From positions 1-55,081 of the forward strand of contig JAJECK010000128.1 of assembly GCA_022822085.1 (NCBI GenBank): a DNA stretch of 55,081 nt, given 5' to 3'. This document shows, piece by piece, positions 299 through 52,109 of this stretch. Source of the DNA: Candidatus Poribacteria bacterium (GTDB taxonomy: Bacteria > Poribacteria > WGA-4E > WGA-3G). Numbering within the stretch: the first letter of the stretch is position 1; the number at the start of each line of letters is the position of its first letter. A model generated the notes under the pieces. It worked only from the letters and a program-made list of their open reading frames with translations, was not told the DNA's origin and did no database searches. The translations under genes and the position numbers were made by a program.

Positions 299-1096
299 AT
301 GAAACGTAGTATAGTTGTGCTTGTATGTCTATTATTGACATTTCAAATAGGTGGTCTGATTGCTGATGTGATAGATCCGGATTTAGTCCTTTATTTCGAT
401 TTTGAAGAGTTCACGGCTACGCATGTTATCGAAAAATCCGGTAACGGGTACGATGGGAGAATTAACAGAAAAGTAACACAGTCGAACGACGGGAAATTTG
501 GCAAAGCAGCACACTTTGAATTGACGAGTTTTCTCGATTTGGACGGTCCTAACATTGATCCTGAACATATTCCGACTGATGGAATGAGTGTTATTGCTTG
601 GATCAACGTTGAAGCAATTTCGCATATGGCGATTTTCAATGCACGCGCAGGAGATGGCACTTGGTTGGTACACCCGGAAGCACGTGCGGAAGGAAACTAT
701 CGTTGGCTCAATCGAGGACATAATCCAGGGAAAACGCTTTTTAATATCCTGGCAGGCAAAAACGTGGCAAAGGAATGGGTACATTACGCTGGCACATTCA
801 ATGTTGATGACGGAATGGCTTATCTATATATCAACGGTAAAAAAGTCGGTGAGGCAAAAGCAGCTTTTCCAGACAAGATCGCAGGAGACTGGGATTCAGG
901 TGCACGCGTCGGGTACAACATTGACGACAACCGTCCATTCAATGGACTCATGGATGATCTAAACGTGTGGAAGCGCGGGTTAACGGAAGAAGAAGTCCTT
1001 AACATTATGAATGAAGGTGTAAGTTCACTATTAGATGTGGAAGCCCGTGGAAAATTGGCTACCACATGGGGAAAACTGAAATCTGCAAAGCAATAG
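299..1096 (+). CDS. Exported LamG/concanavalin-like jelly-roll domain protein
   Basis: This 265-residue protein opens with a Sec signal peptide (KR followed by about 16 hydrophobic residues, likely cleaved near ADV at 22-24). Residues about 28-235 read as a single LamG-like (LamGL) domain: LYFDFEE near the start, a strand with GMSVIAWINV, and the GLMDDLNVWKRGLTEEEV segment typical of the last strands. Such domains bind glycans or act as adhesion modules, and no catalytic domain is attached. AAGGAG 7 bases upstream supports the ATG. The last 15 residues carry GKLATTWGKLK, almost the same tail as the TolB-like protein ending at 6425. That tail lies outside the LamG fold and may be a sorting or anchoring tag (inference). 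The ligand is unknown. Confidence 0.85.
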   Translation: MKRSIVVLVCLLLTFQIGGLIADVIDPDLVLYFDFEEFTATHVIEKSGNGYDGRINRKVTQSNDGKFGKAAHFELTSFLDLDGPNIDPEHIPTDGMSVIAWINVEAISHMAIFNARAGDGTWLVHPEARAEGNYRWLNRGHNPGKTLFNILAGKNVAKEWVHYAGTFNVDDGMAYLYINGKKVGEAKAAFPDKIAGDWDSGARVGYNIDDNRPFNGLMDDLNVWKRGLTEEEVLNIMNEGVSSLLDVEARGKLATTWGKLKSAKQ

Positions 1097-3909: not shown

Positions 3910-5083
3910 CACTGGAAATGATAACATTTCTCCTAAAATTTGTCAAGCCCAAACTCCAGTTGGTGTATGGAGTCACGGCAATTCAAGTTAATATCATACT
4001 TTCAGATATAAACTTGTCAAACACATTATCGTTATCCCGATAGTTATACTTATAGCAAGCTTCTGCGACATAAAGTGGCGTATATGCTGTTTTATAGTGA
4101 TGATGCTGTCCATACCATGCCCGTTTCAGTAACGACCAGAAGCCTTCAATCGTGTTTGTATGGACATCACCGTCTACATATTGCTCCTGATGATTGATAA
4201 CACGATGTTTCATCTCCTTACCAACTCTTTGATAAGACCTAAATTCATCTGTCATTAACTCAGATTCATTCATCTTGACATGCTTCTTAATAAAATCAAG
4301 TATAGCACGACCTGTCAAATTATCCGTTAACTTCGCAACGACTTTACCGCCACGCTGAACTAATCCTATTATTGCGTCTTTATTAGTTCCACGCCCACGC
4401 TTTATAGGTTCTCTGTCTTCCTTTTTATTCCTCTTACGAGGTTTGCCACCGATATAAGTTTCATCTGCCTCAATTATACCTTCTAACAATACATTGCCTT
4501 TTGTCGCCATTTCAGCACGTATTTTATGCATCATAGACCATGCCGTTTTCTGATTCAATTTCAAGTCACGTGCTAACTGATGACTTGACAAACTTTTCTT
4601 TGCATTTAACATCAAAGATATCGCAAGAAACCATTTTTGCAACGCAATCTTTGTTCCGTGAAACACAGTGCCAGCCGTCACCTTAAATGTCGCTTTACAT
4701 TCTTGACAATTCCAACGACCTATCCTACCAGTTTCCGTTTCATGTATTCGCTTATAAACATCTTTACTTCCACAATGTGGACATTCTGCTTCACCATTCC
4801 ATCTAACATTTTCCAAATGTAATATACACGCATCTTGATCTGGAAATCTCTTCATCACTTCTATTAAATCCATCAGAACACTCCATTATTTCAGTTGACT
4901 TTTCCGATGAATTCATATACAATATAAAAACACCTGAAAAATCATAATACGACTCAAATTAGATTTTTCAAGAAAATGGGAGGTTACAGCCTTCCATTTT
5001 CATTACCAAATTACACTATTCATTATCAATATTATACCACATTTTGCCCCATTTTACCAATAAAAGATGCCGTTTTTCCAGTG
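3910..5083. mobile_element. IS1595-type insertion sequence, ends uncertain
   Basis: The transposase gene (3983-4873, minus) defines the element. The best end candidates I could find are CACTGGAAA at 3910-3918 and its reverse complement TTTCCAGTG at 5075-5083, each followed inward by a loosely similar AT-rich stretch. That is only 9 matching bases and does not start with the GG expected for many IS1595 ends. I could not find a convincing 8-bp target duplication. The element is certain; the boundaries are not. Confidence 0.35.
3983..4873 (-). CDS. IS1595 family (ISXO2-like) transposase
   Basis: 296 residues, the expected length for the family. The N-terminal zinc ribbon has C31-P-H-C34 and C56-Q-E-C59, followed by TFKVTAGTVFHGT (63-74). 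The DDE core shows D137 in EADETYIGG, D209 in MTDEFRSY and the NTIEGFWSLLKR block (N240, E243), characteristic of the ISXO2-like DDE/N domain. The frame is intact with all key residues, so the element may still be active. The ATG is not preceded by a strong ribosome binding site, as is common for transposases. It catalyses cut-and-paste or copy-type movement of its own element. Confidence 0.92.
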   Translation of the reverse strand: MDLIEVMKRFPDQDACILHLENVRWNGEAECPHCGSKDVYKRIHETETGRIGRWNCQECKATFKVTAGTVFHGTKIALQKWFLAISLMLNAKKSLSSHQLARDLKLNQKTAWSMMHKIRAEMATKGNVLLEGIIEADETYIGGKPRKRNKKEDREPIKRGRGTNKDAIIGLVQRGGKVVAKLTDNLTGRAILDFIKKHVKMNESELMTDEFRSYQRVGKEMKHRVINHQEQYVDGDVHTNTIEGFWSLLKRAWYGQHHHYKTAYTPLYVAEACYKYNYRDNDNVFDKFISESMILT

Positions 5084-5363: not shown

Positions 5364-6425
5364 ATGCGTTTTTGGAAATTTATATCAATATGCCTTCTGT
5401 GCATACTTTTCTCAACCGTAGTAAATGCCAAAATCGTCTTCCTATCAATACGTGATGACCATAACGAAGTAGAAGGTTTAGTTATGCGTGGTTCCATAGA
5501 TATATACACTATGGATGATGATGGCAGCAATTTGACTTCAATCACATCAACCCGTGAAGCTGGAAGTCCACGCTGGTCCTCAGATAGAAAACAAATTATA
5601 TATCGTGATCACTCTGCAATTCACATTATAAATTCAGACGGAACGAATATTCAACACATCACCCATCCACAAAAAAATACAATGTTTGATGACAACCCAA
5701 TCTTTTCACCTGATGGAAAAAAGGTTCTATATATTCGGTCAGAGAGAATAGGCAATAACACGGTACATAGTGGTATCGTGCTGAACCTTAGAAATGGTAA
5801 TCAGAACAAGATATCCGACCAATTCATAATATCTCCGGATTGGTCACCAAATGGAAAACAGATTGTATACGTAATACATGATGTTCCTTTTATCGGCGCA
5901 GGTGGAAATCTTTTTGTCATGGATGCCGATGGCGGTAATAAACGTAGATTGGTACCAGAAGCCATCCAAGGTGAATTGGCTATAGAGCGATATAATCCAC
6001 GCTGGTCCCCGAACGGTAAACAGATACTCTATACACAAAGGGAGTTTACGTTGGAGAAAAGAGATGCGGATCCTGCAACCCATATTCCAAAGGCGTTTCG
6101 GTATTTTATATGTGATTTGAATGGTGAAACAGTCAATCAGTTGGATATTCCGATCCATTGGAAACCCGGAAGCATTGACTGGATAGATAATGGTAAATCG
6201 GTCGTTTTCAGCGCACAAAAGATGAAACTAAATGAGCAACGACAACCCAAAGAGGCAGCATTAAGTAACATTTATAAGTATCATATTGATACCAAGAAAA
6301 TTACACCGTTGTTAGAACGTCCCATGTATGATTACGCGGTGGATTGGGTGCCGGATAGTCCATTCCTTGTATCGCCTAAAGGGAAACTCACACAAGTATG
6401 GGGCGTGCTCAAGCAAGACGATTAA
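5364..6425 (+). CDS. Exported TolB-like beta-propeller (PD40 repeats) protein
   Basis: 353 residues with a cleavable signal peptide (MRFWKFISICLLCILFSTVV, cleaved near NAK). At least five PD40/TolB-type blades follow, marked by PRWSSDRKQIIY, PIFSPDGKKVLYI, PDWSPNGKQIVYV and PRWSPNGKQILYT, with intervening DDDGSN, SDGTN and DADGGN turns. TolB-like propellers act in protein-protein contacts in the periplasm; there is no TolB N-terminal domain, so this is not TolB itself. GAGGTG precedes the ATG. The C-terminus PKGKLTQVWGVLK resembles the tail of the LamG protein at 299-1096. It converges with the methyltransferase gene, their stop codons overlapping at 6422-6425. Confidence 0.85.
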   Translation: MRFWKFISICLLCILFSTVVNAKIVFLSIRDDHNEVEGLVMRGSIDIYTMDDDGSNLTSITSTREAGSPRWSSDRKQIIYRDHSAIHIINSDGTNIQHITHPQKNTMFDDNPIFSPDGKKVLYIRSERIGNNTVHSGIVLNLRNGNQNKISDQFIISPDWSPNGKQIVYVIHDVPFIGAGGNLFVMDADGGNKRRLVPEAIQGELAIERYNPRWSPNGKQILYTQREFTLEKRDADPATHIPKAFRYFICDLNGETVNQLDIPIHWKPGSIDWIDNGKSVVFSAQKMKLNEQRQPKEAALSNIYKYHIDTKKITPLLERPMYDYAVDWVPDSPFLVSPKGKLTQVWGVLKQDD

Positions 6426-7336: not shown

Positions 7337-8344
7337 CTATCTCGGTAGGTAAACATCTGTTTGGCAATCTTTCTTGCTGGAATAAGCATTCTCTAAACAA
7401 CCAACTCTACCATGTTCAAACTCTGAAACAGTCTTTAATGCAATTTCCACAGATTTTTTCACTATATCAATTCCTATATACTTTCTATTCTCACTCATTG
7501 CTGCTATTGCCGTTGTTCCACTACCAATAAAACAGTCAAGTACAGTATCGTTAATATCTGTTAATAATTTTATGATTCGTCTTGGTAGTTCAACGGGGTA
7601 CTTTGCTTCGTGGTCCGCATTACTCCGTACAGATGGGATTTGCCAGACAGCGCGTGACCCCCATTCTACCCACTCTTTCTTTGCGAGTCTCTCTCTATTC
7701 ACCTCTGTTATTCCTGGTTTCCAAAATATATAAACGTACTCAAATTCGTCTACAGCCCGATAAGAGATTGTATGCCATTTTGAGTTTTCCCAAGCAGCAT
7801 CTTTTATCCATACACGCCTATCGTACAAATAAAAACCAGCTTTACTTGCCACCTCTTGAATAAATCCACCGACAAGAAACACCCTTGTTTGTGGTTGGTA
7901 TTTGCCTCCGCGTATATTATTTCCATTCAAGCGTCTGTCTATCGTCTGTTCACTGCATCCGAAATGTTCTGCAAGTTGATGACGATTCCACGTAGGGTGC
8001 ACTTTTTGTACTGACAATATTTGGTCTTTTGTCAATTTTATTTTTCTTTTTGACACATTTTTCGCCATGATTTTTGGCATTGACATATCTTTAAAACATA
8101 AAATATCCGCTACGTTAATAGCTAAGAACCCACCAGGCTTTATAAGTGGATAGTGGAGTGATATAATTTCCCGCAAAAGAGCCTGCCAATCCTCAAAAGA
8201 CAGCTCTTTTTCGTAAGATTTTCCAACAAAATAAGGCGGTGACCAGACACTTAGTGCAATTGATTCGGGTTTAATACTTTTCAAAAGGATTCGAGAATCT
8301 CCATGATTAATGCTGTTTTCTTGAAGAAATTTCGTAATTTTCAT
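7337..8344 (-). CDS. Beta-class DNA methyltransferase of a type II R-M system, probably N4-cytosine
   Basis: 335 residues from the ATG at 8344, which overlaps the endonuclease stop as ATGA; an in-frame ATG at 8353 would give 338. Motif IV is SPPY (38-41 in the longer numbering) and comes before the SAM-binding FIGSGT (275-280) followed by YIGIDI. That order is typical of the beta class (N6_N4_Mtase), and SPPY favours N4-cytosine over adenine methylation. Between them lies a helix-turn-helix-like stretch (about 118-141, HQLAEHFGCSEQTIDRRL), possibly part of target recognition or autoregulation. Its partner is a SfiI-like endonuclease, so the expected role is protecting the same site (inference). 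Confidence 0.88.
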   Translation of the reverse strand: MKITKFLQENSINHGDSRILLKSIKPESIALSVWSPPYFVGKSYEKELSFEDWQALLREIISLHYPLIKPGGFLAINVADILCFKDMSMPKIMAKNVSKRKIKLTKDQILSVQKVHPTWNRHQLAEHFGCSEQTIDRRLNGNNIRGGKYQPQTRVFLVGGFIQEVASKAGFYLYDRRVWIKDAAWENSKWHTISYRAVDEFEYVYIFWKPGITEVNRERLAKKEWVEWGSRAVWQIPSVRSNADHEAKYPVELPRRIIKLLTDINDTVLDCFIGSGTTAIAAMSENRKYIGIDIVKKSVEIALKTVSEFEHGRVGCLENAYSSKKDCQTDVYLPR

Positions 8345-9057
8345 TGGTTCCATTTCCCTTCACATCGCTGATTAGTTTCATCATAATTAACAACTTGAAC
8401 TCTCCAAGACGCTTTTTGCTTTAGTTTTGAGAAACTAAGGCGCACCCTAAAATCTTCTCCACGAGTGGGGGCATTTCTGCCCGCAAGCCAGATACCATCA
8501 TTTATGTTCGGATTATACCTATCCTGCAACCGTCCATTTGGAATAGCTGCGATTGTAACCTCTTTCAAGTGGCGGTGATGTCCCTCATCTTTGTACATAA
8601 AATGAACTAAACAAGTTGTTGTCAGATAATTATTCTCTCCATAAACAGAAATTTCAGGTAAGAACCCTTTTTCATCAAGGGCATTCCCCTGCCTCAACTG
8701 CTTTACTGACATAGAGGTCTGCGACATTTGCAAAGTAGCAGACCTGTTTGCTTTTTCTGCTTTAGAGTCAATAAAAAGAACTTGTCTGACCGTTTTCTCT
8801 GGTAAAATAATATACCTCGCTCGCTTGTAGTCAACTGTGCCATAGACCCGCTGTTGTACATTAAATCCAGGAAGACGATCCAGAAATTCACGAGTAATAT
8901 CTTCAGCAATATCTGTTACATGATCTGGGGAATAGAAAAATATCTCATAAGACTCCATTCCAAAATCAAGAATTGCTTGGAAAATCCAACGTAATGTCAG
9001 TGCTTCAATTTCCTCAATCTCTTCTATATCCAAATTTGCTGGCTCTTTCTCATGCAT
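8341..9057 (-). CDS. SfiI-like type II restriction endonuclease
   Basis: 238 residues. It follows the layout I remember for SfiI: an N-terminal EALTLRWIFQAIL helix, LAEDIT-like AEDITREFLD, DYKRARY, VLFIDSKAEK, the LQMSQTSM stretch, VHFMYKD, PNGRLQDRYNP and the ARGE-like TRGEDFRVRLSFSKLK near the end. The PD-(D/E)xK core is D76 with D97-S-K99; the 21-residue spacing equals that of the SfiI catalytic residues as I recall them. SfiI is a tetramer cutting GGCCNNNNNGGCC; whether this protein has the same specificity is inference. I saw no such site in this window. It is first in the operon and overlaps the methyltransferase gene; no clear ribosome binding site precedes the ATG. Confidence 0.85.
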   Translation of the reverse strand: MHEKEPANLDIEEIEEIEALTLRWIFQAILDFGMESYEIFFYSPDHVTDIAEDITREFLDRLPGFNVQQRVYGTVDYKRARYIILPEKTVRQVLFIDSKAEKANRSATLQMSQTSMSVKQLRQGNALDEKGFLPEISVYGENNYLTTTCLVHFMYKDEGHHRHLKEVTIAAIPNGRLQDRYNPNINDGIWLAGRNAPTRGEDFRVRLSFSKLKQKASWRVQVVNYDETNQRCEGKWNQ

Positions 9058-19220: not shown

Positions 19221-19243
19221 TCCTAAGCGCATTGGACATCTCT

Positions 19244-21745
19244 ATGAAAGGACCTTATTTTTTTCTTAATCTTCATCTACTAACACTGTTCTGTCTATAT
19301 ATTAATGTAACACAAGTGCATGCGGCAGATATTCCGATAGTTGTCTCCGGTGTCCCGCAAGCAACGATTCAGATCGGTGCAAACGCTTCTACACAAGAAA
19401 AGTTTGCCGCAGAAGAAATCCAGACCTTTATTGAAAAATTCACAAGCGCGAAACTTAAACTACTCACCAACCAACAAGCGACCACAACACGGACAGTTAT
19501 CGTCCTCGGCACGCTCACCTCTAACCCCACAGTCCGTTCACTTCAAACAACGATCGGTTTGAATTTACCTGCAGATATAGGCGATGAAGGCTATCAGATA
19601 AAATCCGCTGATATCGGTTCTGAATTCGTCATCATCGTGACAGCACATACACCACGCGGTGTAATTTATGGGACTTACGGTTTCATAGAAACATGTATTA
19701 CTGCATTGACAGGGCTCCAACCTGTCCATCCGAACATAGCAGTAGCACAAACACCAACATTGCGAATTCCATCTCTTGACGAAACTTCACGTCCATTCTA
19801 CCCAGTCCGAGCGGTATTAGAAATAGATGACCCAGATTGGCTTGCAAGACAACGAGTCAATATGAGCGGCGGTGAAGGCGTTTGGACAGGCACCGGAATT
19901 GAAGATGGATTCGGGACCGCATTCAAATATGTGGATTCCCCCGAATTCTCTGCCTACCAAGATGAACCACGTGCCCAACGCTTGAAAAGAATTGAAACCC
20001 TCCAAAATCGATTTACCGCACTAAACAAACGTGGTATTGACGCATATCTATTTATGTATCTGACAGGTGAACCGACAGAGGCACTTATTAAAGCACGACC
20101 AGACCTGCTGGGCCCAGAGGTGCTATATGGAGCATCACGGAACGAGGTATCATATAGACCTTTCTGTTGGACGAACCCTGAATTTCACACGCTGGCACGT
20201 CAATTAACACAGGAAATAGTCAAAACATATCCAGCACTTGCTGGATTCCATCTACGGTCATGGGGACATGAAACGCGGGCATGCAACTGCCCCGAATGCG
20301 GTGACCGATCCCCGCAAGGGCAAGCGAAACTCTGGGACGTCTACTTCACAATTATCAAGGCTGCAAAAGATGTACGACCCGATTTCAAATTTTATATTTC
20401 AGGATATAACAGAAGTTGGCTGCAAGACCCAGAGGGTGAATACGCACGACGATTACCGAAAGGCACTATCTTCTCACAAAAATGGGGGGCAGATGGTGAA
20501 CCGGTCGTCGATCCGAATATACCGCTTACACAGATGAATGCACTTGGAGAAATGGGACACAGATTTATTGTCCTCTCACATGATGTTGAAGAAGTAATGC
20601 CGTTTTGGATGATCGAAAGCGACATATTTGTACAAGGTGTACGCCAACTCGCAAACGCTCCTGATGCCATCGGGCTCAGCGGGTTTACTGTACAAGGGGC
20701 ATCGGAAGGGTTAGGTTACCTTGACCGACTTGTGAGTGCTCGCATAAATTGGGATACTCAGTTAGACCACCTCCAATTAATGCGTAATGAATTAATGTCA
20801 CAATATGGAAACAAGCAAGCTGTAGAGTTGATCCTCAGCGCGCTACGGGTTAATGGGTTCACCTTGGCAAGTTACTTCTCTGATTATGCAAGTTCTATCT
20901 CCATCGGGGGCAGTTACGGCACAGGTTCGGCAGGGTTAGCAACACGGTTTTGGAACCTCATCGGTAGTAAAGCTGTTGAAAATACACTGCTAATTCCAGA
21001 ATTAAAGATAGCACAAACGGCAGTCAGTCGCTTCACAGCACTGCTACCGCCACAACAACGCGCAGCGAATGAGATGTGGCAGGCACGGGAAATCGCTGAA
21101 CCGATAGACCCAGAAGCATCACAAGACCTAAACGATGCAGTACATCTGATGCAACTATGGATGTTGCTCTTTCAAAGCAGAGAAAAACTCGTTGAAGCGA
21201 TTGCACTCGGCTATGAAGTGAACACAGGGAGCACAATCAATTCAAAACTGGCAAGTGCGACAGAGTTCTCAAAAGCCATGCAACCGCTGATGAAGCAATT
21301 CAACGAATTCGGGCCACTTTTCGGATATTCACACCAAACGAATGAGGTGGAACTGACGAATACCTTAAAAGATGAAGCTGCGTGGCTTGCCAAGTACGAC
21401 TATCAGCTACTCCAAAAACATGACGAAACTTGGACACCTGAGGAGACAGAATTCCGCATCTCCGAAGTACATAACTATCCTAATCCGCTCAAACGCAAAA
21501 CCACATTTACCTACATATTGACACTTGATGCAGATGAAGTAACAATTACGATTTATACCGCCGCAGGAAGACGCATTCAAACTCTAAAAGATGTCGCTGC
21601 GAAAGAGGGATATAATGAAACGACATGGAACGCCCAGGACGCTGATGGCAGACCGCTTGCCAATGGAGTCTACTTTTACAAAATCCAGGCTGTTCACGAT
21701 GATAAAAAGGTCGAAAGCATCCGTAAATTGGCTGTGATACGATAA
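19244..21745 (+). CDS. Large exported protein: GH67-N-like domain, putative hydrolase core, FlgD/T9SS-like C-terminal domain
   Basis: 833 residues from the ATG at 19244 (an in-frame TTG at 19232 is possible). Signal peptide cut near VHA. Residues about 30-170 (IQIGANASTQEKFAAEEIQT, then TRTVIVLGT) resemble the alpha-glucuronidase N-terminal beta-sandwich domain found in GH67 and related glycosidases. The middle (about 180-560) looks like a TIM-barrel-type region: ETSRPFYPVRAVLEIDD, GFHLRSWGHETRACNCPECG. The cysteine cluster CNCPEC is notable. The last 90 residues (NYPNPLKRKTTFTYIL, then AAGRRIQTLKD and ANGVYFYKI) are a FlgD Ig-like/type IX-like sorting domain. Probable secreted polysaccharide-acting enzyme; substrate and catalytic acids are not assigned. 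Confidence 0.65.
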   Translation: MKGPYFFLNLHLLTLFCLYINVTQVHAADIPIVVSGVPQATIQIGANASTQEKFAAEEIQTFIEKFTSAKLKLLTNQQATTTRTVIVLGTLTSNPTVRSLQTTIGLNLPADIGDEGYQIKSADIGSEFVIIVTAHTPRGVIYGTYGFIETCITALTGLQPVHPNIAVAQTPTLRIPSLDETSRPFYPVRAVLEIDDPDWLARQRVNMSGGEGVWTGTGIEDGFGTAFKYVDSPEFSAYQDEPRAQRLKRIETLQNRFTALNKRGIDAYLFMYLTGEPTEALIKARPDLLGPEVLYGASRNEVSYRPFCWTNPEFHTLARQLTQEIVKTYPALAGFHLRSWGHETRACNCPECGDRSPQGQAKLWDVYFTIIKAAKDVRPDFKFYISGYNRSWLQDPEGEYARRLPKGTIFSQKWGADGEPVVDPNIPLTQMNALGEMGHRFIVLSHDVEEVMPFWMIESDIFVQGVRQLANAPDAIGLSGFTVQGASEGLGYLDRLVSARINWDTQLDHLQLMRNELMSQYGNKQAVELILSALRVNGFTLASYFSDYASSISIGGSYGTGSAGLATRFWNLIGSKAVENTLLIPELKIAQTAVSRFTALLPPQQRAANEMWQAREIAEPIDPEASQDLNDAVHLMQLWMLLFQSREKLVEAIALGYEVNTGSTINSKLASATEFSKAMQPLMKQFNEFGPLFGYSHQTNEVELTNTLKDEAAWLAKYDYQLLQKHDETWTPEETEFRISEVHNYPNPLKRKTTFTYILTLDADEVTITIYTAAGRRIQTLKDVAAKEGYNETTWNAQDADGRPLANGVYFYKIQAVHDDKKVESIRKLAVIR

Positions 21746-46068: not shown

Positions 46069-46506
46069 TCAATCAGTTACTCCACCTTCTTCATCAGCAA
46101 CTGCAAAGGCAACTTCAAGACCTTCTACCTTAGCTGACCGCAACTTTGCCCGCTCAACTACGTCAATGACGCGTCCATGTTTGGCGCGCTTATCAGCTTT
46201 TATGATCAGAGTGCTAATTTTATGTTCGTTGGCAGCTATAAAAAGTCCTACCTCTTCCAATGTCTGCATCTCTCTGTCATCAATTGCGATTCGACCATCG
46301 CTGCTGATAAACAAGTTGTATTTTTTCCTCGGAAATTCGTGTTCAGTACTTGAATCTGGTAAAGTAACACTAAATGGTGGAGGAACTCGCATGATGGCTG
46401 AAACCATGAAAAAAATGAGTAATAGAAATACACAGTCAATCATAGGTGCCATCGGAATATCATCGTCACTACCAGAATTCCGTCTACGTCTCATTTGGAG
46501 AGCCAT
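46069..46506 (-). CDS. exbD: ExbD/TolR-type proton channel component (second copy)
   Basis: 145 residues. Short basic N-terminus, then the single transmembrane helix MAPMIDCVFLLLIFFMV with the essential Asp, and a periplasmic domain (FISSDGRIAIDDREMQTLEE, then IIKADKRAKHGRVIDVVERA), the standard ExbD/TolR layout. Third gene of the exbB-exbD-exbD operon, 48 bases after the first exbD. It works with ExbB to harvest the proton gradient for TonB or Tol. Confidence 0.9.
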   Translation of the reverse strand: MALQMRRRRNSGSDDDIPMAPMIDCVFLLLIFFMVSAIMRVPPPFSVTLPDSSTEHEFPRKKYNLFISSDGRIAIDDREMQTLEEVGLFIAANEHKISTLIIKADKRAKHGRVIDVVERAKLRSAKVEGLEVAFAVADEEGGVTD

Positions 46507-46554
46507 ATCTATTCTCCTTACATTATGGATGGAACTGAAATTTGATTAACTACG

Positions 46555-47004
46555 TCAATCGCGCGCAGTAATAGCAAACCCAATTTTATCAATACCTGCA
46601 TCTTTTGCTACATCCATTACCCTGACAATCTGTTCATGTAACACATCACGTTGGGACTGGATAATTAGCATAGTTTTCTGTTCATCAGTTGCATTGAGAA
46701 GAATTGCAAACATTTCATCAAACTGTACAACTTGACCATTCAACAGCATTGTACCGTCTTTATCACTGACAGTAGGATTGTCAATTTTGACGACAAGTCC
46801 CTTCGGTTTTTCTTTTGAAGGTTCACCTGGTGGTGGAAGTTGTACACGAATGCCCGGCATCGGGGCAAAAGTCGTTGACACCATGAAGAAAATCAGGAGC
46901 AGGAACACACAATCAATCATTGGAGCCATACTGAGCGTTGGTGCTTTACGTTCACGTATTCGCGTCGCCATTAGACTTAATTTGGCTTCACCAAGTTGTT
47001 GCAT
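46555..47004 (-). CDS. exbD: ExbD/TolR-type proton channel component (first copy)
   Basis: 149 residues. SMAPMIDCVFLLLIFFMVSTTFAPMPG is the transmembrane helix with its conserved Asp; the periplasmic part (VVKIDNPTVSDKDGTMLLNG, LIIQSQRDVLHEQIVRVMDV) is typical. GGGAG about 9 bases before the ATG. The two ExbD proteins differ mainly in the periplasmic domain, as seen in bacteria that pair ExbD1/ExbD2 with one ExbB. Confidence 0.9.
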   Translation of the reverse strand: MQQLGEAKLSLMATRIRERKAPTLSMAPMIDCVFLLLIFFMVSTTFAPMPGIRVQLPPPGEPSKEKPKGLVVKIDNPTVSDKDGTMLLNGQVVQFDEMFAILLNATDEQKTMLIIQSQRDVLHEQIVRVMDVAKDAGIDKIGFAITARD

Positions 47005-47030
47005 TTCAAATTCTCCCTGTATTTAGGCAT

Positions 47031-47052
47031 AGGCGAGGAATATACCTCGCCT
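47031..47052 (-). terminator. 8-bp hairpin between exbB and exbD
   Basis: AGGCGAGG (47031-47038), loop AATATA, CCTCGCCT (47045-47052). It lies 8 bases after the exbB stop. It may attenuate or protect transcripts within the operon rather than end them, since exbD follows closely. The core GGCGAGG recalls the REP palindromes. Confidence 0.5.
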
Positions 47053-47060
47053 TGTTGTAA

Positions 47061-48128
47061 TTAAGCGTTCGCGTCACCAACAATCAATTGATTAACGATC
47101 TCTGTGGATACCTGGGAGATTTCAACCATATGTCTATTGACCCAACTATCAAAAAGTTGGAAGAAAATGAGACAAGGGATAGCAACTGTTAAACCACCAG
47201 CAGTTGTGAGAAGTGCCTGTGAGATACCACCAGCAAGCTGTTGTGGATCACCAGTCCCTTCAAGTGCAATCGTGGTAAACGCAGTAATCATACCCGTAAC
47301 AGTTCCAAGGAGACCAAAAAGCGGTGAAACAACTGCGACTGTACCAAGCACAGGAAGATTGCGTTCTAATTCCGGAATTTCAAGTAGACTTGCTTCTTCA
47401 ATGGCTTCCTGTATTTCCTCTTTTGTAATATCTCTTTCCTCTATCTGGGCTTGGCTGTATCTGAGCAGTCCAGCTTTCAATACGTTTGCGAGTGGTCCAC
47501 CTGCCTCTTCACAAGTTGAGACTGCTTCCATTATGTTCTCTTTTCGTAATGAATCAGCGATACTCGCGATGAACTGTTCAGTTCCAATGCGTGAGCGGCT
47601 GCGTACAAAAGTGAAAAGTCTTTCAATAATGAAGGTGAGCGCGACAATAGAGCAAATTGCCAATGGATAAAACACAAATCCAAATTTCATGAAAAAGGAG
47701 ATGATATTATCCTTTTCTCTCATTTTAATTCGTTCAAAGATTTCGCCGCCAGCAGCAACAACCTTTGACCTACCGACTCGATCTCCATAACCTTCTTTAG
47801 CCACACTAACAGTGTAACGTCCTGGTGGTAGACCGGACTGTTCAAAGGAACCTGTTTCATCTGTAGTCGTTATATACTCTTGTTCACTACCTGCTTCTAC
47901 GATTTTTACGGTTACATCTTGTATAGGATTCTGATTTGCTGAAGTATCAATAATTTCACCTTTGACGGTGGCACCCCCTATTCCGCTGTCAACTTCTTCA
48001 CCTTCGGTATCACCTTCTGCGGCATCAACACTGGGGGCTTCAGCCGGTTCCTCTTCTTGTGCTATAACAATGCCAGTTACCATAAACATACAGGCGACTA
48101 ACATTAGAATTAAACTTAAACGAGTCAT
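47061..48128 (-). CDS. exbB: ExbB/TolQ/MotA proton channel with extra N-terminal periplasmic domain
   Basis: 355 residues. A signal peptide (LILMLVACMFMVTGIVIA) and acidic linker lead into a carboxypeptidase-regulatory/CnaB-like beta-sandwich at about 50-130 (VKGEIIDTSANQNPIQDVTV, GSFEQSGLPPGRYTVSVAKEGY). The ExbB core follows with three membrane helices (FYPLAICSIVALTFIIERLF; SPLFGLLGTVTGMITAF; LLTTAGGLTVAIPCLIFFQL), including the GLLGTVTGMI signature. The fused domain lies on the periplasmic side and may contact cell wall or partners. AAGGAG precedes the start. First gene of exbB-exbD-exbD. Confidence 0.9.
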   Translation of the reverse strand: MTRLSLILMLVACMFMVTGIVIAQEEEPAEAPSVDAAEGDTEGEEVDSGIGGATVKGEIIDTSANQNPIQDVTVKIVEAGSEQEYITTTDETGSFEQSGLPPGRYTVSVAKEGYGDRVGRSKVVAAGGEIFERIKMREKDNIISFFMKFGFVFYPLAICSIVALTFIIERLFTFVRSRSRIGTEQFIASIADSLRKENIMEAVSTCEEAGGPLANVLKAGLLRYSQAQIEERDITKEEIQEAIEEASLLEIPELERNLPVLGTVAVVSPLFGLLGTVTGMITAFTTIALEGTGDPQQLAGGISQALLTTAGGLTVAIPCLIFFQLFDSWVNRHMVEISQVSTEIVNQLIVGDANA

Positions 48129-48450: not shown

Positions 48451-51400
48451 TTAGAATCCCATCATTGCTCGCACAAATGTAGTATTACTGGTTGTGTTCT
48501 TGACAAGGATGGTAGTTCTTCGGTAACCTGCTAAGATAACGATATTGAAACCGAGCCATTCACCTCTGTTGATAGCTTGGATTTCAAAAATTCGCTTCCG
48601 CAAATCTGGACGATAGCGGATTGGTACGGGTTCATCAGGACCGAAAACTTCCAAATATTTCTGGAAAACTTTATCACGGTTGGTAAATTTCCGATATTGG
48701 AATCCGCCCAGTACATTCACTTTAGGTGTAAATTGATAATCAAGGCGAACACCAAGAACATCTTCGCGACTTCTACGGTTGAATCGGAGATATTCAACAG
48801 GTTCATCATCTGTCGGAACAAAGTGTCGTGCATTTAAGACTTCACCAATTTCTTCCGCAGTTCTGTCAAATGCACGATCCCAAATATATTTGACCATAGG
48901 TGTCAGCGTCAAATCTTCACCGATCCTATCCACATACGGAAGATCGCCAAGAGGGATTTCATACTTACCCTTGAGAATAACCTGCTGACTACGTATATTC
49001 CGTTCGGGATAACGACGTAACTTCCAATTATTGATATCGTAAATTAGACCGGTGTCTGTTGGGTCAAGCGCATTAATGCCGTGGTCAGGATAAAATGGAA
49101 AATCCCGCCTGTCCCCACTTGTCCGCACCTGTTCATCAGGAACGAGAAAATCAACCTGTTCATCCGGTTCAAACAACTCTGCTCCCTCATCAGCCTCAAC
49201 ATCTAAAAAAACCGCATCCTCTTCATCAAGTTCATACTGTTTTTGCAAAACGACAAGGATTTTGGTTTCCAATGTGAGATTGGGAACAGCAGTATAATGG
49301 AACTGTAACGTTGTTGTATTTACGCGTGCATTGTAATAATCAAGTTCGTCTTCAGTTTGCTCAGCTTCCAATTCCCCTACTTGTAAGGTAATGGTGTAAT
49401 CTGGAATATCATCGCGAACTCGAACAAAACGGTTTTGAAAGAGAATTGTTCCGAAATCTGGAATATCGCGTTGGTAGGTTACGTGTAGATATTTGGAATC
49501 ATTCTTTCTACGACTTGAGACTTCGTTTTCGTTCAACCAACCGACCTGAAGAGATAAGTTATCAAGTAAATCATATTCTGCTTTGAGATGATAACCTTCT
49601 CGGTCAATCCCGTATTCATACTGTGGTTCAAAATCATCTTCAAGGGAATCAATCGTTCCATTATTATTCAGGTCAATTAAGTCAGTAAAGACAGGAGGGT
49701 CAGCCTCAAAGATAAGAAAATCTTCCTGATAGTCTAAGATACCGTTCTGATCTCTATCATCAGCCCGTGGGAGAACATTGTCAAAATCAATATCATCAGG
49801 CCAATCGTCATCATCATCATCATCCTCAACCAGTGTATAATGAGGTTCCTCCCAGAAAACCGGAAGTCCACCGGCTTCGAGTGATGGTCCGGCAGGAGGA
49901 AGGGTATACGGTTGATCACGATCTAAATTTGATCCGAAGTTCAGATATGTAGTCGTGTAACCAGGATCAATGTGGTATAAGACACCTTCAAGGTAGAGTT
50001 TGCCAAAACGGGATTTGAGTTGAATAAACCATGCGGATTCTCTTCCCATTATACCATCACCGTTTTCATCTGTCCCATCGCCTCCGAGCATTGCTTCAAA
50101 CCGTTCACCTTCGGCTTCTGAGTAGGTAGGTATACCGTTCGGATCTGTCACCACACCATCAGCTCCAACATTAACATTTGTTGTTTCTTCACCTTCCTCA
50201 GTGACGATAACAGATTTGATACGACTAAATCCTACCTGATCTTTAGGTATAGTAGGATACTGTTTATATTTTCCGTTAATTGAGTAGTGTGCTCGGACAA
50301 ATACATTTCCAACTGTTCCCTCCAAATCTAAACCGTAGAGGAGCGCGGCACGTGCAGCACCGTAGCGATATTGGACCTTTCTGGGTCTTCCTTCGCCTTC
50401 CCATGCGGCGGGATTGTCTAAGAGAGTTGCCCGGTTATCAGTATAGTCTGAAGATTGTCCGTAGTTGCCTGGTGCCTGAATGACATCACGATATGGCATT
50501 TGGATGTGACCATCTTCAGTCTTAATCCATTCCTGAATTTCAGGATCTGATTCTGCTTGGTTTGCTGTGCTAACTCCAACGACAGAAATGTTATAATCGC
50601 CAGCGACGATCATATCAAAAACAACATCTTTTACTGTCCGTGGATCAATATCATGCTGTTCAAAATTTAATTCGTATCTCATTTTATTGAAACCGTTAAC
50701 GATTTTCCATTCGCCATCAACGGAATCACGAATTTGATCAACAGCAGGATCGAGTGGGAGAATTTCGTCTATAAAGACATCAATTTCTTGTCTTTCTTCG
50801 GGAAGCAGGTCAGGTTCAATCCCATCTGCTATCTCCTCAGCGGATATTTCATCAAGAGCTTGTGTAATAATCGTGATCTTCATAGATTTGAAAGCTGCCC
50901 CTACACCACCTTGAAACCTATCCTCAAGTATATTTTGGAGTTCATCTGATGAAAGTCTTCTACGGTCATTCGTATTAATAAAGGTTTCGTAAAGATGATT
51001 GTCTTCTGGAGAGTCATCTCGGAAGATAACTGTAATGGTTTCTGGAGGGGTATTAGCAACTGTTCCCATCAACGGATTTTCCACCCGTTCAGGATGTTCT
51101 TTATGCAAGTTTATATAAGTAAACCCGACACGGAAAATATCCCCTAACAGCCCTTGTGCCCGAAATCCGATAAGTCGTGCGTTCTCTATATGTCGCACAC
51201 CTGCATCATCGTTCAAACCATTTCGACGTCCAAGGTTTGGAGCAAGAGTTGCTGCTGTTTCTGCCAAACGAATAGGGTTAGAGATACGGGAATTGATAAG
51301 GGTAAAGAGATGCCGCTCTTGAGAAAAAGAGATATCCCACCGAAACCCATCAAATTCAGTTTTGTAGATTGCATATCGGTTAGGGAATAAGGTAGAAGGT

Positions 51401-51795
51401 TTGAGTCGTATGTGGTCACCGATTGCGAACTCTGTATATCTACCTCGATAGGCATCTTCAGTCAAAATAGTGCGGTCTAATTGTATTGTGAAACGTTCAC
51501 TATCAAGCTGCCCCGTCCTTCCGATAATCAACTCGCCATTCTGATCAAACTCCTTCTCCTCAAGATAGTGTTGCACTTCACTTCCTTCAAGAAGTTCTTT
51601 ACCGAATAGATCGTAAAAGAACTTTGGTTCTTCTTCTAATCGGAAGCGATCTGAGAATTTTGAGTCCCCATCAATAGTAGGCAAGAGAGGTTCTTGTGGT
51701 CCTAAGCTCTGTGCACCACAACCGTAGAGCACAACCAAACTTAGGATACATGGCACTACAAGCAAAACATTAATCAGGCGTTTTAACTTGTTCAT
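48451..51795 (-). CDS. Very large outer-membrane lipoprotein with calcium-loop-like segments
   Basis: 1114 residues from the ATG at 51795, preceded by AAGGAGG; an in-frame ATG at 51969 would add 58 residues that hide the signal peptide. The lipoprotein signal is LSLVVLYGCG (lipobox Cys near 26). The body is rich in beta-strand-like YxxxFxL alternation, contains EF-hand-like Asp loops (DENGDGIMG, DRDQNGILDYQED, DLNNNGTIDSLED) and a run of Asp near 49810-49826, and ends in FVRAMMGF, an outer-membrane-type aromatic end. A large beta-barrel or surface protein is the best guess; I do not recognise the family. A minus-strand promoter lies at 52110-52138. Confidence 0.65.
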   Translation of the reverse strand: MNKLKRLINVLLVVPCILSLVVLYGCGAQSLGPQEPLLPTIDGDSKFSDRFRLEEEPKFFYDLFGKELLEGSEVQHYLEEKEFDQNGELIIGRTGQLDSERFTIQLDRTILTEDAYRGRYTEFAIGDHIRLKPSTLFPNRYAIYKTEFDGFRWDISFSQERHLFTLINSRISNPIRLAETAATLAPNLGRRNGLNDDAGVRHIENARLIGFRAQGLLGDIFRVGFTYINLHKEHPERVENPLMGTVANTPPETITVIFRDDSPEDNHLYETFINTNDRRRLSSDELQNILEDRFQGGVGAAFKSMKITIITQALDEISAEEIADGIEPDLLPEERQEIDVFIDEILPLDPAVDQIRDSVDGEWKIVNGFNKMRYELNFEQHDIDPRTVKDVVFDMIVAGDYNISVVGVSTANQAESDPEIQEWIKTEDGHIQMPYRDVIQAPGNYGQSSDYTDNRATLLDNPAAWEGEGRPRKVQYRYGAARAALLYGLDLEGTVGNVFVRAHYSINGKYKQYPTIPKDQVGFSRIKSVIVTEEGEETTNVNVGADGVVTDPNGIPTYSEAEGERFEAMLGGDGTDENGDGIMGRESAWFIQLKSRFGKLYLEGVLYHIDPGYTTTYLNFGSNLDRDQPYTLPPAGPSLEAGGLPVFWEEPHYTLVEDDDDDDDWPDDIDFDNVLPRADDRDQNGILDYQEDFLIFEADPPVFTDLIDLNNNGTIDSLEDDFEPQYEYGIDREGYHLKAEYDLLDNLSLQVGWLNENEVSSRRKNDSKYLHVTYQRDIPDFGTILFQNRFVRVRDDIPDYTITLQVGELEAEQTEDELDYYNARVNTTTLQFHYTAVPNLTLETKILVVLQKQYELDEEDAVFLDVEADEGAELFEPDEQVDFLVPDEQVRTSGDRRDFPFYPDHGINALDPTDTGLIYDINNWKLRRYPERNIRSQQVILKGKYEIPLGDLPYVDRIGEDLTLTPMVKYIWDRAFDRTAEEIGEVLNARHFVPTDDEPVEYLRFNRRSREDVLGVRLDYQFTPKVNVLGGFQYRKFTNRDKVFQKYLEVFGPDEPVPIRYRPDLRKRIFEIQAINRGEWLGFNIVILAGYRRTTILVKNTTSNTTFVRAMMGF

Positions 51796-52109
51796 TAGTT
51801 TGATATTCCTCCTTAGGAAAAATTTGAATCGGGGCCAGACAACCAATTTTTGTAAATTACATTTCTTTAGGACAGGTGCCTGGGCATCCGAAAACCATAA
51901 CTGCGGAATGAATATAAATTTGTAAACGAATATAAGAAATACTCGTTCTTTCTGTAACAGATTATCCATCTGAGTTGGATAATAACTCTTACATGAAATA
52001 TAAACTTCTGCTTGATTGAATATGAGAATGTAAGTTAGCAGAAATGTAATTCAATCCTCAGATTATGGGTTTTGTGAATAATTCTCCACAAAACGCTTAC
52101 TAAGCGTAT
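51796..52109. other. Long leader of the lipoprotein gene with operator-like palindrome
   Basis: The 300-base leader is AT-rich and holds an open frame continuous with the lipoprotein (to 51969), whose sequence is not convincing. ACGCTTACTAAGCGT (52093-52107) is a perfect 15-base palindrome located right where transcription from the promoter would begin. Confidence 0.4.

Follow-up and report, generated by a model that had tools for sequence, protein, structure and literature searches.

The window analysed here is a stretch of 55,081 nucleotides from a Candidatus Poribacteria genome, in which two genes on the forward strand encode proteins that end in similar short tails. The first (299..1096, +) encodes a LamG/ConA-like jellyroll protein of 265 aa (PF13385, E=2.5e-21; AlphaFold2 jellyroll with a pLDDT of about 95) and the second (5364..6425, +) a TolB-like PD40 beta-propeller protein of 353 aa (PF07676, E=1.1e-18; propeller model with a pLDDT mostly above 90 up to about residue 330). 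Both begin with a predicted Sec signal peptide, with cleavage sites placed by eye: MKRSIVVLVCLLLTFQIGGLIA in the LamG protein (299..364, +), where a basic N-terminus precedes a hydrophobic core, and MRFWKFISICLLCILFSTVVNA in the propeller protein (5364..5429, +). The tail of the LamG protein, V-E-A-R-G-K-L-A-T-T-W-G-K-L-K (1037..1081, +), lies within the C-terminus ...LLDVEARGKLATTWGKLKSAKQ, so that the last lysine of the motif is 4 residues from the stop; the short form of this ending is GKLATTWGKLKSAKQ. The propeller protein carries the tail V-S-P-K-G-K-L-T-Q-V-W-G-V-L-K (6369..6413, +) and ends in ...FLVSPKGKLTQVWGVLKQDD, with 3 residues after the motif; positions 6381-6425 encode GKLTQVWGVLKQDD and the stop codon. 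The first-pass annotation had described these two endings as a common tail on exported proteins of unrelated fold. Both tails were found exactly as it described them, the two Pfam families confirm that the folds are unrelated, and a signal peptide is predicted on each protein.

Several other features were recorded in the window. A gene for an IS1595-type transposase (3983-4873, -; PF12762, E=6.1e-38) is located between the two tail-bearing genes. A gene for an SfiI-type restriction enzyme (8341-9057, -; PF11487, E=3.4e-81) overlaps a gene that, judging from its sequence, probably encodes a DNA methyltransferase (7337-8353), and the two would form a compact type II restriction-modification pair (7337-9057, -). 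A protein of 1172 aa (48451-51969, -) had no Pfam match and its strand-rich C-terminal end resembles an outer-membrane barrel; its gene adjoins ExbB/ExbD-like genes (46069-48128).

The observation made on the two proteins is correct and much larger than first noted. A degenerate DNA pattern for K-L-x3-W-[G/A]-x-[L/I/F]-K had 100 matches in the genome of the window (the own genome; Poribacteria, 5.63 Mb, 158 contigs) and the reversed-pattern control had 0, which excludes chance; at least one of the 100 sites holds an in-frame stop. In the loci fetched from this genome, the motif was situated 0-20 residues before the stop (mode 3) in 110 of 110 matching ORFs. Because some tails depart from the strict pattern (NRLTTVWGNLK, GKKKVTWGTVK and DTQTTLWGRLK), the real count in this genome must exceed 110. 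From about 100 copies in a genome of 5.6 Mb, we estimate that roughly 2% of the genes are tagged. The pattern was present in all of the 85 Poribacteria genomes searched, many of them metagenome-assembled, with 14-156 matches per genome against at most 3 for the control. When a stricter pattern was used on the contigs of GTDB species, 77 of 80 among the matches listed were titled Poribacteria, and all 155 copies in the GTDB loci among the matches listed had the motif 1-12 residues before the stop.

Among the matches listed, the pattern was also found in MAGs named as Pseudomonadota (L114), Planctomycetota (L126) and Deltaproteobacteria (L142). These three MAGs had only 3 pattern matches each genome-wide, several of them on small contigs, and the simplest explanation is mis-binned poribacterial DNA or chance, in preference to a genuine occurrence outside Poribacteria. 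In L114 (MAG RHO2_bin_21), two adjoining genes have perfect poribacterial tails, and one of them resembles a serine protease; this DNA was either mis-binned or transferred.

The conserved unit spans 15-17 residues and is therefore longer than the 11 residues in the initial description. From 109 distinct tails of the own genome, the consensus is [L/T/F]-[A/S/P/D]-V-[E/S/D]-[P/A]-x-[G/D]-K-L-[T/A]-T-T-W-[G/A]-x-[L/I]-K, usually followed by 2-4 variable residues. The invariance of K0, W5 and K9 (numbered from the first lysine) in this set was built into the search pattern. Independent support comes from positions absent from the pattern, namely the valine 5 residues upstream of the first lysine (V in 105 and I in 4 of the 109 tails) and the P/A 3 residues upstream of it. 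The same profile was obtained from 158 distinct tails in the GTDB loci among the matches listed, for which the stricter pattern had already fixed G at -1 and T at 3 and 4. W257 and K261 were invariant in 69 homologues of the LamG protein. In a set of 14 propellers, of which the other members are 23-40% identical to the window protein and eight lack the strict motif, W346 was invariant and V336, P338 and K350 were conserved in at least 90%. When the C-terminal 40 residues of every ORF were scanned with the profile, the scores were bimodal without overlap: tails scored at least 15, and 2785 internal segments scored -0.4 or lower.

The tail is strongly associated with export. A Sec signal peptide was predicted for 92 of 99 testable carriers (at least 150 aa), compared to 74 of 254 neighbouring ORFs (Fisher p=7e-30); the rule used was crude and home-made, and was the same for carriers and neighbours. 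The carriers without a called signal were mostly truncated ORFs or had obvious signals missed by the rule. In the window and other stretches of the own genome, six of seven tails belonged to proteins that had a signal peptide and no further membrane segment, while the remaining protein looks N-terminally truncated; since these other stretches were mostly from contigs without strict matches, they do not measure prevalence. Among 100 carriers with a length of 150 aa or more, a lipobox after the signal peptide was scored in one, probably because of a mis-called start, and no carrier was a convincing lipoprotein. The expectation that the motif would be C-terminal and enriched on exported proteins is thus strongly supported.

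It might be argued that the tail is merely where an ordinary shared domain ends, or that it is a 3' repeat which recombination or gene conversion has spread, with no role in targeting. In favour of this, many carriers are LamG paralogues, which inflate the carrier counts. When 106 carriers were stripped of signal peptide and tail, however, they fell into 20 BLAST clusters, between which no similarity was detected beyond the tail; the largest was a LamG cluster of 54. Their Pfam domains included LamG, PD40 (TolB), WD40, LRR, CBM9, LTD, 3-keto-disaccharide hydrolase and FN3, among others, and none of the Pfam or NCBIfam families shown had a model covering the tail. With 20 unrelated cores, no model over the tail, and a tail outside the confident fold in both models of the window proteins, an ordinary shared domain, which the first-pass annotation had named as an explanation that would undo its proposal, was rejected. 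A DNA repeat or gene conversion was rejected as well, because codons were diverse at each conserved residue except W and the bases after the stop carried little information; this indicates selection on the protein and not copied DNA. Across 357 pairs of related carriers, pN/pS was 0.21 in the tail, 0.30 in the core and 0.37 in the 25 residues just upstream, values that are descriptive because the pairs are not independent, and that suggest stronger purifying selection on the tail than on the core. Together with the signal-peptide enrichment, these results make a tail without a targeting role extremely unlikely.

Structure prediction supports a tail that hangs off the fold, exposed on a flexible or disordered linker. 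In the AlphaFold2 model of the LamG protein, a confident jellyroll is followed by a linker with pLDDT below 50 (residues 248-251), and the motif lies in an isolated helix of low confidence (249-262); in the propeller protein, all of residues 335-353 had pLDDT below 50. Disorder within the parent protein, combined with conservation that ranks with the highest in that protein, is what binding motifs typically show. On a helix, the side chains of L, W and L/I would fall within 60 degrees of each other, but the hydrophobic moment was no better than that of shuffles, so that neither a helix nor a strand is favoured. The consensus peptide had only a chance-level match among solved structures (E=0.58), and a Foldseek search with the LamG model gave nothing beyond the generic lectin-type jellyroll. 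The tail contains no transmembrane segment, lipobox or folded C-terminal domain (CTD).

We compared the tail with known C-terminal signals, and no known sorting model matched it; in an NCBIfam search of 78 carriers, the best 25 of 39 families included no C-terminal sorting-signal model. The PEP-CTERM/exosortase, LPXTG/sortase, GlyGly-CTERM/rhombosortase and MYXO-CTERM/myxosortase systems resemble it in that a short C-terminal signature occurs on many unrelated exported proteins of one lineage and one reader is expected. In those systems, however, the signature is followed by a transmembrane helix and a basic end and is processed at the membrane, whereas the tail has 0-20 (mostly 2-4) residues after the motif in all 110 own-genome copies and 1-12 in the 155 GTDB copies, with no membrane segment. 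The signature of MYXO-CTERM has an invariant cysteine (PMC11980579); no conserved cysteine was present in the profile of the own-genome or GTDB tails. Cargo peptides of encapsulins and bacterial microcompartments are also short, C-terminal, possibly helical and flexibly linked, but they load cytosolic cargo, and the Sec signals of the tail carriers make loading of this type unlikely.

The CTDs of type IX secretion (T9SS) require closer comparison. Like the tail, the type A CTD (TIGR04183/PF18962) is C-terminal, occurs on exported carriers by the dozen per genome and is found in the same Poribacteria genomes. It folds, however, into an Ig-like domain about 70-100 residues long and has a different sequence, whereas the tail is a flexible peptide of about 17 residues, too short to hold such a domain. 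The T9SS signals known so far are domains that fold and have a length of at least about 70-100 residues (PMC12618676, PMC10202324). The alternative type B and type C CTDs (TIGR04131; ChiA-type), of which type B is read by specialised shuttles (PMC12618676, PMC10202324), are domains of about 100 residues, and type B is usually encoded beside its PorP/SprF shuttle; neither applies to the tail. The TIGR04183 domain has a PNP motif, and no PNPF-type CTD occurred in the last 140 aa of the tail ORFs (0/280). In the openly available literature that we searched, we found no published description of the tail or of a T9SS in Poribacteria.

T9SS-type CTDs were previously reported from Poribacteria in a study of six single-cell genomes, which did not find the structural genes of the system (Kamke et al. 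2014; PMC3909097). Our searches bear on that question, because SprA, PorU-like and PorV-family genes were now detected. A SprA homologue was present in 78 of 85 Poribacteria genomes at E<=0.001 and exceeded the cut-off in 30. Full SprA-like ORFs of 2140-2297 aa matched TIGR04189 over 4-5 stretches (E=1.8e-43 to 9e-54), below the curated cut-off of 200 bits; the own genome has a full-length homologue (C122:42911-49321, locus L300), and divergent SprA ORFs were located at L218:3677-10099, L220:3644-10537 and L221:3541-10146. A single-sequence search of solved structures with SprA gave no match. The PorV family (NF033709) exceeded the cut-off in all 85 genomes with 8-24 matches each, and C25 peptidases occurred in 84 of the 85. 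The PorU model, whose cut-off is 420 bits, matched the three C25 copies of the own genome at 347-418 bits (E down to 8.6e-125), and this genome had 53 TIGR04183 matches at E<=0.01, 51 of them over the cut-off. A search for GldM, of the GldL/GldM motor, gave no match in 40 genomes, nor in any control genome. Taken together, the SprA, PorV, PorU-like C25 and CTD genes indicate that a T9SS-like outer-membrane system occurs in the phylum and has CTD cargo of its own. This other class of C-terminal tail is also represented in the window, by a GH67N-like protein (19232..21745, +; PF03648, 8.2e-11) with a type-A-like CTD at about 21476-21691 (TIGR04183, 36.1 bits; FlgD_ig, 3e-11) and without a KLxxxWGxLK tail.

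Could this machinery read the tail? The first-pass annotation had suggested a search for a co-occurring processing enzyme, and PorU-like sortases, SprA and the PorV family do occur phylum-wide; however, since the whole phylum has both the tails and the machinery, co-occurrence cannot discriminate. In several of the neighbourhoods examined (L301-L315), PorV-family genes were directly beside CTD or C25 genes; tail genes were near PorV genes in only one (L309), without consistent synteny, and in the loci examined the tail genes were otherwise not linked to PorV, SprA or C25 genes. If the tail were a new class of T9SS signal, a PorV-family shuttle or SprA would read K-L-x3-W-G-x-L-K and translocate the proteins that bear it across the outer membrane. 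The expanded PorV family is in line with this, as is the lack of PNPF-type CTDs on tail proteins, which is expected of alternative signals, and in Bacteroidota different CTD types are read by different shuttles (PMC12618676). Against it stand the absence of consistent synteny with tail genes, the lack of a folded CTD or any sequence resemblance to TIGR04183, and the sizes of the carriers, which are mostly small (about 230-350 aa) where CTD carriers are mostly large. We consider this explanation unlikely, though worth keeping in view.

The tail could also be a retention or assembly element in the periplasm, or an assembly element at the surface, instead of an export tag; like an encapsulation or docking peptide, it would attach its carriers to one putative scaffold, or to one another, with no export step. 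An exposed peptide on a linker predicted to be disordered, the lack of any cleavage or membrane element and the many tandem paralogues of lectin-like carriers would all agree with this, but the Sec signals weigh against loading into a cytosolic microcompartment, and we hold it to be a possible, if rather doubtful, explanation. A tag for stability or quality control, that is, a degron or docking site for envelope proteases, would likewise be C-terminal, exposed and specific to exported proteins. Proteases of the Tsp or DegP-PDZ style recognise the free C-terminus, however, and this is unlikely here because of the variation in the last 2-4 residues; it would also be odd for about 100 different proteins, lectin-like and other, to carry a degron. 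A role of this kind is therefore very improbable.

In our opinion, the tail is probably a short linear targeting or docking tag at the C-terminus of Sec-exported Poribacteria proteins, read by a putative envelope receptor. That it resembles a sorting signal, as was first proposed, is well supported by its C-terminal position, the enrichment on exported proteins and the unrelated cores; an undescribed export or attachment route is a reasonable, unproven extension, and cleavage is not suggested. Since there is no transmembrane anchor to cut, unlike in LPXTG, PEP-CTERM or MYXO-CTERM proteins, the tag probably works by binding, and with no membrane helix after the motif and variable last residues, sortase-like membrane cleavage and recognition of a free carboxylate are both unlikely. 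As in known pathways, the signal peptide would take the carrier across the inner membrane, where the globular domain would fold and, as the models suggest, leave the tail exposed on its flexible linker. The side chains of the invariant K...W...K and of the flanking L and L/I may then fit into a groove on a conserved receptor of the envelope, and this receptor would export, anchor or gather all tagged proteins. The most plausible candidates for the receptor are parts of the divergent type IX-like machinery (SprA, PorV-family shuttles and PorU-like C25), in which case the tail would give these genomes a second cargo signal, one that is not a domain, in addition to their type A CTDs. More tentatively, and with confidence that stops short of an even balance, we suggest that Poribacteria use a previously undescribed route, in which a non-cleaved, domain-free C-terminal peptide of 15 residues (V-x-P-x-G-K-L-x-T-T-W-G-x-L-K) and a dedicated envelope receptor bring about 100 different proteins of each genome to a single destination, either on the cell or outside it.

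In marine sponges, Poribacteria belong to the dominant symbionts; to our knowledge, they are uncultivated. If the tail is indeed such a tag, it would be a sorting signal built unlike the known classes, having neither a membrane anchor nor a folded domain. Sequence alone would then define the set of proteins that these bacteria send to a single location, which may be the surface that faces the sponge.
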